Shown piece after piece: positions 38,332-40,776 of a stretch of 64,000 nt of DNA (its first letter is position 1; each line of letters opens with the position of its first letter). Origin of the DNA: Chroococcidiopsis thermalis PCC 7203 (GTDB lineage: Bacteria > Cyanobacteriota > Cyanobacteriia > Cyanobacteriales > Chroococcidiopsidaceae); NCBI RefSeq assembly GCF_000317125.1, contig NC_019695.1:5568336-5632335 (forward strand), written 5' to 3'. A program made the position numbers and the translations under genes. The notes under the pieces were generated by a model. It had not been told where the DNA came from. It saw only the letters and a list, made by a program, of their open reading frames with translations, and ran no database searches.

Positions 38332-39282
38332 TTACCATTCTTGATATAGCTTTTGGGCGTTAAACATAATTTCTTCGTTTGGCAAGCGAATTTTTGGTTT
38401 TTGCCTGGGATATAAATTCTCGATTGTTTCTGTATCCTGCCGAATCACTTCATCTACTGCTTTGAGTAGCGAATTCTTTAACAAGGTTTTTAAAACTAAA
38501 TTCTGAATCTTGGCAAAAACTAAAACAAATGTCTTAGTACGATTTTCTGTTTCAGGATATAAAGAATGAATTTGAATGAATTGACCAGCAGGAATTGAAG
38601 CAACAAATGAGGTTAAACAAGGAAAGGAATATTCAAATTGATTGACAAAGATTTTAGGAACAGTGAGTAAAACTGGATTACTAGCAATCTCTCCTAGCGT
38701 GTTACTGTCTCTAGTAACTTTCTGGAGGAGTTTTGTACTGTAGCCATTCTCCTGGTATTCATCGACCTCAATCGCTTTAATTCTAAATATTTCTCGATGC
38801 GTGCCATTTTGGTGATTGTAGTCGTAATTAATTAATAGATTGCTTAAAAAATCACCTTGAATGCTTTTACTTCCAGCAATCCCAACAAATTCAAAACCAG
38901 GGGTAATTCTTTCAATTAAGTCGGGAATGGGAATTTTTGGTTCGCATCCTCCATACGTCCAGATATTATCGCCGATCGCAGTCAAATCTAATTTTTCTAA
39001 CAATGGTTGAGTTACTGTTTCCGCTCGATATAAGCGTCCTTGCGTGTCAAATTCTAAAGCGTGAAACGGACAAGTAATGGTATCTCGCTCTCGACAAATC
39101 CAGCCATCGGAGAGAGGGGCTTGCATATGAGGGCAAACATTATCTAAGCCGAAGACTTCACCTTGTTGATTTTGCCACAGTACGTAATCTCGACCGTTAA
39201 GAGTAATTTTATGGGGTTTATTAACTCCCAACATCGAGCGATGAGCAATCAACCAAGGCGCACCAGGGAGAATAGGATGCAT
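38332..39282 (-). CDS. Rieske-type aromatic-ring-hydroxylating oxygenase
   Basis: 316 residues. Rieske [2Fe-2S] ligands: Cys50, His52, Cys71, His74 (C-P-H...C-P-F-H). Mononuclear iron site: N-Y-D-Y-N-H-Q-N-G-T-H with Asp154, His157, His162, the D-x2-H-x4-H pattern. The A-P-W-L-I-A-H start resembles cyanobacterial Rieske oxygenases related to chlorophyll or aromatic oxygenases. It should use an external ferredoxin. It is divergent from the TetR gene, and two operator-like sites lie between them, so repression by that TetR is likely. Substrate unknown. Confidence 0.88.
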   Translation of the reverse strand: MHPILPGAPWLIAHRSMLGVNKPHKITLNGRDYVLWQNQQGEVFGLDNVCPHMQAPLSDGWICRERDTITCPFHALEFDTQGRLYRAETVTQPLLEKLDLTAIGDNIWTYGGCEPKIPIPDLIERITPGFEFVGIAGSKSIQGDFLSNLLINYDYNHQNGTHREIFRIKAIEVDEYQENGYSTKLLQKVTRDSNTLGEIASNPVLLTVPKIFVNQFEYSFPCLTSFVASIPAGQFIQIHSLYPETENRTKTFVLVFAKIQNLVLKTLLKNSLLKAVDEVIRQDTETIENLYPRQKPKIRLPNEEIMFNAQKLYQEW

Positions 39283-39314: not shown

Positions 39315-39327
39315 ACGGTTTATTCGT
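39315..39327. promoter_or_regulatory. Operator-like site 1 (Rieske promoter side)
   Basis: ACGGTTTATTCGT shares 9 of 13 positions with site 2 at 39344. On the minus strand it lies between a -35-like TTGAAA and a -10-like CATATA/TATATT that would serve the Rieske gene. Confidence 0.45.
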
Positions 39328-39343
39328 ATTTTTTCAAAATATG

Positions 39344-39356
39344 ACGAATCGTTCGT
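39344..39356. promoter_or_regulatory. Operator-like palindrome 2 (TetR start side)
   Basis: ACGAA-TCG-TTCGT, a 13-base palindrome with perfect 5-base arms. It overlaps the first in-frame ATG (39341) of the TetR gene, which is one reason to prefer the start at 39395. Starts are 29 bases apart between the two sites. Confidence 0.55.
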
Positions 39357-39394
39357 GTTTGTCAAGCAAGGGTGGTGAGTCACCTACAAAATCT

Positions 39395-40147
39395 ATGCGT
39401 CGTTCACCGAAGCAACAACGAGGTAAGCAAAGGGTAGAAAAAATTTTGGATGCTGCGGCTGAGGTATTTGCTGAGGTAGGTTATGATGCCGCTACAACCC
39501 ATGCGATCGCAACACGGGCAAATACAGCCGTTGGCTCGCTTTACCAGTTTTTCCCTGATAAAGCAGCTATCTTTCGCGCCCTAGAAATTCGTCATGTAGA
39601 ACGAGTGCGGGCAATGTGGGCTAAACTCGACAAACCTAGCATCATTCAGTTACCTCTAAGACAAATGATTCAACAGCTAGTAGCCGCTGTTGCCAAACTA
39701 TTCGAGCAACCGACATCTCGCGTTGTTTTCGTGCAATTTTTCACCGCACCAGAAATATTTCAAACAATTGACGAGAGTTTGACTCAAGAGGCGATCGCAT
39801 TTATGGCTAGTTTATTGAAACAGCGCCATCCTACCTTAAGCGACGAGAGAGCTAGCTTATTAGCCGAAGTCTGCGTTCATTGCAGCAATACGTTAATTCT
39901 AATTGCTCTACGCAGCAGCGAAACTCACAGCCAGCAGCTCATCCAACAGATAGAAGATTTACTCGTATCCTACCTCAGTCCTCATGTCGGTGATGAGGTA
40001 TTGCAGAGTGAGGTAATGAAAGTAATGATATGTCCTCACTGCCAATCCGAGCGACTCTCTAAAAACGGGCATCGCCACGGGAAGCAGCGTTATTTGTGTA
40101 AAGATTGTGGCAAGCAGTTTCCAGCATGGAAAGGAGCATTGCCATGA
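39395..40147 (+). CDS. TetR family regulator fused to an IS1-type zinc ribbon
   Basis: 250 residues from ATG 39395 (268 from ATG 39341). The TetR DNA-binding domain is clear: I-L-D-A-A-A-E-V-F-A-E-V-G-Y-D-A-A-T-T, then I-A-T-R-A-N-T-A-V-G-S-L-Y-Q-F-F-P-D-K. A ligand domain follows. The last 40 codons (40025 onward) give C-P-H-C...K-N-G-x-x-x-G-K-Q-R-Y-L-C-K-D-C-G-K-Q-F, the N-terminal zinc ribbon of IS1-family InsA. After Q-F the IS homology stops. The neighbouring divergent Rieske gene is the likely target. Either an IS fragment entered the gene end or the ribbon was recruited. Confidence 0.85.
   Translation: MRRSPKQQRGKQRVEKILDAAAEVFAEVGYDAATTHAIATRANTAVGSLYQFFPDKAAIFRALEIRHVERVRAMWAKLDKPSIIQLPLRQMIQQLVAAVAKLFEQPTSRVVFVQFFTAPEIFQTIDESLTQEAIAFMASLLKQRHPTLSDERASLLAEVCVHCSNTLILIALRSSETHSQQLIQQIEDLLVSYLSPHVGDEVLQSEVMKVMICPHCQSERLSKNGHRHGKQRYLCKDCGKQFPAWKGALP
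40025..40147 (+). mobile_element. IS1-family InsA 5' fragment at the end of the TetR gene
   Basis: Starts at an ATG in frame with TetR and codes a complete four-cysteine ribbon, then ends after P-A-W-K-G-A-L-P. In intact IS1-type elements the homology would continue past Q-F into the rest of InsA. No terminal inverted repeats or second ORF were seen, so only a remnant or captured domain is present. Confidence 0.55.
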
Positions 40148-40221: not shown

Positions 40222-40776
40222 CTACTCTTCGTATTGTGTCATTACTTTTCGGTACTGTTGTGCAGTCAGTGCCATCTCCGCTAAGATTTCGCGTTGCTCC
40301 TGCACGATGCTTTGTGCCTCTGCCGCTGCCCGTTGTGCCTCTTGCTCTATACGACGGGCTTCAGCAGCCTGCTGTCGCGCCTCTTCCGCAGCACGTCGCG
40401 CCTCTTCCGCAGCACGTCGCGCCTCTTCCGCAGCACGTCGCGCCTCTTCCGCAGCACGTCGCGCCTCTTCCGCAGCACGTCGCGCCTCTTCCGCAGCACG
40501 TCGCAACTCTTCTGCAACACGTCGCAACTCTTCAGCCTCCTGCCGCATTTCCTCGTTTGTCTGCCGCATCTCCTCCGCGAATTCTCGGCTCTCCTCAGAA
40601 GTCTGACGGTCTTTCTCTGACTGAATGCGCTGTTCTTCAGCAGCAGATTGGCGCAATGCAGCTTGCTTCTGCTGCTCGGCACTTGCCTCTCGCTTTATTT
40701 CCGACTCGCGCCGAGCTTGTTCGGCGTTTTGCCGTTGCCGTTCCGTTTTCTGACGCTGTGGCTCGCTTTCTGGCAT
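40222..40776 (-). CDS. Heptad-repeat coiled-coil protein
   Basis: 184 residues, almost all Arg, Glu, Ala and Gln, forming one long alpha-helical coiled coil. Residues about 91-132 are six exact copies of R-R-A-A-E-E-A, encoded by a perfect 21-bp tandem array. No signal peptide or membrane span. The gene start (M-P-E-S-E-P-Q-R-Q-K-T) and the different C-terminal end (V-M-T-Q-Y-E-E) look like a real protein. Three plus-strand frames over the same region are artefacts of the repeat. Role unknown; a structural or filament-forming scaffold is possible. Confidence 0.7.
   Translation of the reverse strand: MPESEPQRQKTERQRQNAEQARRESEIKREASAEQQKQAALRQSAAEEQRIQSEKDRQTSEESREFAEEMRQTNEEMRQEAEELRRVAEELRRAAEEARRAAEEARRAAEEARRAAEEARRAAEEARRAAEEARQQAAEARRIEQEAQRAAAEAQSIVQEQREILAEMALTAQQYRKVMTQYEE
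40377..40523. repeat. 21-bp tandem array, six perfect copies plus one degenerate
   Basis: Perfect copies at 40377-40502 (6 x 21) and a seventh, diverged copy at 40503-40523. One unit codes one heptad of the coiled coil on the minus strand. Perfect identity points to recent expansion or continuing gene conversion. Confidence 0.93.

Follow-up and report, generated by a model that had tools for sequence, protein, structure and literature searches.

Is a transposase-like zinc ribbon at the end of a regulator gene a passive scar, or is it a working part of the protein? The question is raised by one locus in the window, by which we mean the whole 64-kb stretch of DNA analysed here. An earlier note on this DNA had described a normal TetR domain followed in frame by a four-cysteine ribbon of IS1 InsA type, and had offered two accounts of it, namely the gain of a second DNA-binding module or the fusion of an insertion-sequence fragment to the gene end. 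The features discussed below are these.

38332-39282, minus strand: Rieske [2Fe-2S] non-heme oxygenase gene, 316 aa, divergent, predicted target
39315-39327, no strand: operator 1, ACGGTTTATTCGT, imperfectly palindromic, lying just downstream of where Rieske transcription is expected to begin
39336-39341, minus strand: TATTTT, the -10 box that a promoter scan predicts for the divergent Rieske gene, with a spacer of 18 nt
39341-40147, plus strand: gene of the TetR-family regulator, 268 aa if begun at the ATG at 39341 (alternative start at 39395), with a zinc ribbon of IS1 InsA type at the C-terminus
39344-39356, no strand: operator 2, ACGAATCGTTCGT, arms ACGAA/TTCGT, in the divergent-promoter spacer and covering codons 2-6 of the TetR frame
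39360-39365, minus strand: TTGACA, the -35 box predicted by the promoter scan for the divergent Rieske gene
39443-39583, plus strand: TetR_N DNA-binding domain, residues 35-81 (Pfam PF00440, 59 bits, cut-off 24)
39653-39976, plus strand: TetR_C_15 ligand/dimerisation domain, residues 105-212 (Pfam PF17918, 84.8 bits, cut-off 26.8)
40031-40120, plus strand: four-cysteine zinc ribbon of InsA type, predicted three-stranded, residues 231-260 (NF050000/NF048018)

A TetR regulator with an InsA-type zinc ribbon

The open reading frame at 39341-40147 is continuous over its 268 aa, and a TetR_N domain above its curated cut-off together with a helical TetR C-terminal domain (TetR_C_15, likewise above cut-off) places the protein in the TetR family. 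The cysteines C231, C234, C253 and C256 are found exactly where they had been reported, and the matched ribbon domain ends at residue 260, eight residues short of the end of the protein. The assignment of this ribbon to IS1 InsA stands in part: the NCBIfam models NF050000 (IS1/IS1595 zinc-binding domain, residues 231-260) and NF048018 score 55.1 and 56.5 bits against cut-offs of 28 and 27, respectively, but the Pfam model of the InsA N-terminus, PF03811, reaches 18.2 bits, below its curated cut-off of 26.1, and the helix-turn-helix (HTH) that follows the ribbon in InsA is absent. The frame stops after the ribbon, without the catalytic domain of an IS1 transposase, and a tblastn search (E<=0.5) of the 1.2 kb downstream of the stop codon found no remnant of the HTH. 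The window gene encodes a TetR regulator that carries an InsA-type ribbon; it is real and conserved, and by all signs in its sequence it is functional.

An AlphaFold2 model of the 250-aa form that starts at 39395 (49-row alignment, mean pLDDT 92) has helices to residue 206 and three strands within residues 221-243. Confidence falls to a block mean of 68 at residues 201-210, between the helical part and the strands, and block means for the ribbon (residues 211-240 of this form) are 87-93. In the model of a longer relative, L104 (mean pLDDT 84.5, 29 rows), three extra helices follow the ribbon. Among the best 50 of 948 fold matches in the PDB, 2oer and KstR come first, with FasR and butyrolactone-receptor-like TetRs lower; the best 60 of 93 sequence matches are to similar TetRs, and in these the best aligned stretch never passes window residue 212. 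The window protein shares TetR_N and TetR_C domains and palindromic operators with the 2OER/KstR/FasR type (TetR_C_15), but unlike the window protein, no description among the matches listed includes a C-terminal zinc ribbon.

The cyanobacterial clade and its tails

Orthologues were sought in 60 related genomes, in 386 genomes of the phylum and in a named genome collection, and they are present in many cyanobacterial genera. The sweep of the phylum returned at least 15 of the 386 genomes at E<=1e-45 (a lower bound, because at most six candidates per genome were scored), and the relatives from the named collection are the best 80 of 531 tblastn matches to a query alignment whose ribbon columns favour ribbon-bearing members. 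Before classification 17 loci were set aside by hand, comprising copies of named loci, a second record of the window gene, non-TetR hits, fragments and L015, which is a full ribbon-bearing relative; proteins of less than 200 aa were dropped. This left 116 classified proteins, of which 115 (all but L032) entered a tree built on the TetR columns only, by a quick method without bootstrap.

Every sampled ribbon-bearing row falls within a single cyanobacterial clade of 97 rows on this tree (SH-aLRT 99), made up of 68 members with the ribbon only, 19 with the ribbon and an InsA-like HTH, six with a winged-HTH-like tail and four without a tail, and none of the 18 tail-less paralogues on the tree falls inside it. 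The ribbon is present in 87 of 97 clade members. That label required the four cysteines; the remaining 10 rows proved on inspection to lack the ribbon wholly, and no degraded ribbon was seen among the 97. Were the ribbon a scar, orthologues in close relatives had been expected to end before it; instead it is widely kept, and the tail-less members are few (L025, L107, L129 and L130). As they occupy scattered positions within the clade, we read them, on the tree, as losses of the tail.

The nearest group to the window trio (the window species and two congeners) consists of L104 and L038, two copies within one genome (support 86). These sister rows carry ribbon and HTH, whereas the window lineage has the ribbon half alone. 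Ribbon-only and ribbon-plus-HTH rows are interleaved on the TetR tree, and the HTH would therefore have been lost several times or, less simply, gained; the tree alone is compatible with both. At the C-terminal place of this lineage one finds the ribbon, the ribbon with HTH, or a winged-HTH-like domain with an SRRTLQR motif (L111, L112, L114, L116, L122 and L125). The last occurs at two places of the tree and falls under every Pfam cut-off where scanned; weak hits to the tails of five such proteins include HTH_DeoR, HTH_11, HxlR and SarA/Rot. Two further rows deserve mention. L075, whose source record is titled Candidatus Gracilibacteria, clusters with a row from Hydrococcus and has probably been misbinned. 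A congener holds an additional TetR-ribbon/Rieske pair (L041, G002:C2) that is apparently broken, with its TetR frame interrupted and its Rieske match in two pieces.

All 87 ribbons share a 26-residue CxxC-18-CxxC core in which an N, a G and two Q are invariant, and the residues after it are few and variable. Over the 30 ribbon codons, the window trio differs by 22 synonymous and 0 nonsynonymous pairwise changes, summed over three pairs and as such not independent events. In 13 small groups the dN/dS of the ribbon (Nei-Gojobori) is 0 to 0.13, within the range of TetR_N, and that of the linker is 0.12 to 0.52 in the 12 groups where it is defined; the ribbon has the lower value in 11 of the 12, the exception being L074/87/123 (0.129 vs 0.118). 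Judged by these codon comparisons, the ribbon is under purifying selection; it is nearly unchanged in many cyanobacteria and is therefore a working part rather than a scar.

Candidate operators, divergent promoter and partner genes

The two related 13-base sites that had been noticed between the TetR gene and the divergent Rieske gene are both present, 29 bp apart. When the window was scanned on both strands with a matrix from the orthologues, they ranked first and second (38.9 and 15.0 bits; next 4.7), and a pattern fitting both matches the 6.69-Mb genome without mismatch at the two operators and nowhere else, matrix and pattern alike being derived from sequences that include the two window sites. 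On these scans, the two sites are more than chance. A wider regulon was considered and rejected: there is no other perfect site genome-wide, and matches with up to three mismatches number 77, against 163 for a reversed-pattern control.

Operator 2 is found in 94 of the 97 clade members, 84 by matrix scan and 10 of the remaining 13 after correction of the stretch searched; the exceptions are L096, which is cut by a contig end, and L124 and L102, which have no good site. Its 3' edge, TTTGTCAAG, is the -35 box on the opposite strand. This box is TTGACA or TTGACG in 92 of the 94, and 88 of the 94 have TAnnnT after a further 18 nt; the promoter scan of the window found 3 promoters against 0.3 expected, two of which share the same minus-strand TTGACA. 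With the -35 and -10 boxes conserved around it, operator 2 would fill the promoter spacer, and operator 1 would lie at the expected start site. As such, the paired operators first described as shared with the Rieske gene now appear as conserved candidate sites on a predicted divergent promoter.

Operator 1 was counted when it scored above the 95th percentile of background, so that about 1 in 20 may be chance. At 26-40 bp from operator 2 it is present in all 67 of 67 ribbon-only members, 10/16 with ribbon and HTH (one further such member is at a contig edge), 2/6 with the winged-HTH-like tail and 3/4 without a tail, a difference among tail classes that is confounded by kinship. Spacings in ribbon-only members are mostly 27, 31 and 32 bp, which places lineages about half a helical turn apart. 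A ribbon that bridges two bound dimers at a fixed phase was likewise rejected, as a spacing of 26 to 40 bp is too variable. All four tail-less clade members retain operator 2, and a palindrome followed by GTCAA stands at the same place, by eye, in 12 of 19 ribbon-less related TetRs (the clade matrix rises above background in only 2 of the 19). Operator recognition would so go with the TetR domain, and the ribbon would not be needed for it, since operator 2 occurs in tail-less members and similar palindromes occur in tail-less paralogues.

The overlap of operator 2 with the first ATG had been taken to point to 39395 as the real start. Starts could be scored in 84 of the 97 clade members (11 were unscorable and 2 lacked an operator according to the start-scoring script). 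In 39 of these the ATG within the operator is open and no in-frame ATG lies downstream of the operator; in another 39 the operator either contains no ATG or contains one whose frame is closed, and an in-frame ATG lies downstream; in 6, including the window and its two congeners, both starts are open. Since operators that cover the start codon are common in this family, the overlap does not discriminate between the two starts. Position 39395 is a possible start for the window gene because the sister rows L104 and L038 can start only downstream.

The protein at 38332-39282 combines a Rieske domain (PF00355, 64.1 bits, cut-off 20.3) with an oxygenase C-terminal domain (PF19112 VanA_C, 26.4 bits, cut-off 23.5), as is proper to a Rieske non-heme oxygenase. 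Of the 80 clade loci in the second and third sets, 72 have a Rieske match beside the TetR gene, always upstream on the opposite strand (two matches, L103 and L122, are partial and one, L125, is 1.7 kb away), and a Rieske gene also adjoins most members of the first set. Six of the eight loci without a match were inspected (L096 and L127 fall outside that inspection), and the nearest upstream minus-strand gene encodes a cytochrome P450 in L126, L130 and L124 (with two small genes between in L124), a FAD-type aromatic-ring hydroxylase in L102, a FAD-binding oxidoreductase-like protein in L112 and HpnH in L104. The Rieske protein of the window trio clusters with partners from a different TetR subgroup (100) and its TetR groups elsewhere (98), in trees both built by a quick method without bootstrap; regulator and partner seem to have been re-paired at least once. 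The window genome has one further Rieske relative (42%). At 40222-40776 (minus strand) there is a 184-aa frame, rich in Ala, Glu and Arg and by eye probably a coiled coil; it is built on a tandem repeat of 21 bp (7.6 copies at 40374-40533, 97% matches).

The reading that we prefer, with a probability of roughly 0.6, is that the window gene encodes a one-component repressor that acts locally, on the divergent oxygenase gene and on itself. Its TetR lineage would be an old one in cyanobacteria, in whose ancestor InsA, the DNA-binding part of an IS1 transposase, was joined to the C-terminus. TetR dimers would bind through TetR_N to operator 2, between the -35 and -10 boxes, and to operator 1, at the transcription start, and would there block RNA polymerase and repress both the oxygenase gene and tetR itself, until released by a hydrophobic or aromatic ligand, plausibly a substrate of the oxygenase. 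The zinc ribbon would contribute further DNA contacts, with flanking sequence or without specificity, and so make this binding stronger or set its orientation.

Role, origin and reuse of the ribbon

We infer, then, that the ribbon may serve as an auxiliary DNA-binding tail, and DNA contact is favoured because folds of DNA-binding type share its place and because its surface is basic and InsA-like. A point against ribbon-assisted specific binding is that the window lacks the HTH half needed for InsA specificity; in IS1, zinc finger and HTH are reportedly both necessary for specific DNA binding (PMC12428005).

It is also conceivable, if unlikely, that the ribbon acts through proteins rather than DNA, mediating oligomerisation or contact with a partner such as RNA polymerase or a second TetR dimer. 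Zinc ribbons frequently mediate protein contacts, the ribbon is here alone without the HTH of InsA, and the linker is under less constraint. Against this, the last 43 residues of the window protein carry a net charge of +7, the TetR ribbons have KNG-R-GKQ-Y residues in common with IS1-type proteins, and in IS1 the finger reportedly takes part in DNA binding (PMC12428005). Rather more doubtful is a zinc- or redox-sensing switch, in which oxidation or loss of zinc would alter TetR binding and tune oxygenase expression. The CxxC pairs, the further cysteine present in 49 of the 87 ribbons and the predominance of redox enzymes among the partner genes would suit such a switch, but the extra cysteine is an arginine in the window, and in six members this place is taken by a winged-HTH-like domain that lacks these cysteines, a better fit to a role in DNA binding.

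With respect to origin, residues 219-298 of the sister row L104 match positions 1-81 of the 199 in the IS1 transposase model NF033558 (E 2.6e-25; 89.5 bits, below the whole-protein cut-off of 100), and the match stops short of the catalytic part. Sister rows thus retain an InsA-like module that ends before the catalytic part, and IS1 InsA is therefore the likely source of the ribbon. In a tree of 45 modules over 82 columns, the 19 from TetR proteins cluster as a single group (97/97), apart from 26 others, namely five GntR modules, one further protein (L183) and 20 frames labelled IS1 by eye, with no family test, for being none of TetR, GntR or L183; four of the 29 fetched module loci were omitted (L142 and L143 as TetR copies, L166 and L170 as broken). 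Within the sampled rows, the TetR lineage probably captured the module once. The likeness to InsA, the DNA-binding part of InsAB', lies in the zinc ribbon and, in the sister proteins, in an InsA-like HTH in the same order; the regulators differ in that they lack the catalytic domain and carry the module, in the window just its ribbon, behind a TetR protein. The alternative of a generic zinc ribbon, similar to that of InsA but without transposon ancestry, would account for the weak Pfam scores of several further ribbon families on the window protein, and the direction of transfer, from transposon to regulator, is itself inferred; yet an InsA-like HTH directly follows the ribbon in 19 relatives, one of which gives the transposase match above, and the top-scoring frames of 80 related genomes, regulators aside, are IS1-like, with about 50% identity, so that we consider this very improbable.

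Last, a functionless IS1 fragment fused to the gene end can be dismissed: the module is clearly InsA-like, four clade members have no tail and the residues after the ribbon vary, but the four cysteines are kept over many genera, nonsynonymous changes are nil in the window trio, the sampled rows point to a single old origin, and in the window genome (6.69 Mb, 3 contigs) the next-best ribbon match has an E of 2.5e-4 in a frame with a stop, the whole module being matched at one further place only (E<=1e-6), weaker than about 1e-11. Taken as a whole, the earlier interpretation keeps its paired operators and a TetR protein that appears to have gained a transposase-derived, InsA-type DNA-binding module; the passive fragment falls to conservation, purifying selection and the single old origin, and the argument about the start finds no support.

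The ribbon is also found on other proteins. GntR/FCD regulators with a C-terminal InsA-like ribbon and HTH are encoded at L184:4174-5139 (plus strand) and L185:4694-5704 (minus strand), with further ones in L144, L145, L146, L149 and L150, and all seven come from genomes of the window's own family. In L184, PF00392 and PF07729 score above cut-off and PF12759 and PF03811 just below, and the gene adjoins, by eye, amidase-, dihydropyrimidinase- and racemase-like genes. Common to these and to the TetR proteins is a one-component regulator followed by ribbon and HTH; the host family is unrelated, the module falls outside the TetR group and the neighbours are amidase-/dihydropyrimidinase-like. A separate capture of the InsA module by GntR is likely, and only likely because the 82 columns place the GntR modules weakly among the IS1 ones.

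Frames of 426-508 aa in L034, L173, L177, L180, L181 and L182 have an IS1-type ribbon near the N-terminus together with an NYN (nuclease-like) domain, confirmed by Pfam in L034 and alike by eye in the other five. Acidic low-complexity proteins that start VTDHLEPYRRMVR or similar (L033, L171, L172, L174, L175, L176, L178 and L179) bear an InsA-type ribbon near the C-terminus. In L183, ribbon and HTH occur alongside a cysteine pattern that we take to be a SWIM-like motif, without a match in the Pfam scan.

In these cyanobacteria, then, the IS1-type ribbon occurs on at least four other kinds of non-transposase protein, and by these comparisons the window gene is one of several instances in which the DNA-binding domain of an insertion sequence has been reused. 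Tentatively, and at a little short of even odds, we suggest that cyanobacteria use IS1 InsA as a plug-in second DNA-binding domain, captured once by TetR and separately by GntR/FCD regulators, exchanged in places for a winged-HTH-like domain and trimmed in others to the ribbon only. If true, such a regulator would grip DNA at two points, the TetR or GntR site and the tail. Transposase domains recruited as transcription factors have mostly been described in eukaryotes. The architecture is unusual, and among titles and abstract openings of open-licence papers we found no TetR or GntR regulator described as carrying a ribbon of InsA type. Annotation can miss the tail, the sole full-length relative with an annotated feature in a plasmid collection being named merely a TetR family regulator. 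The clade offers a bacterial natural series on one TetR lineage with a conserved operator (no tail, ribbon, ribbon with HTH, winged-HTH-like tail), in which the contribution of a second DNA-binding module would be directly measurable.
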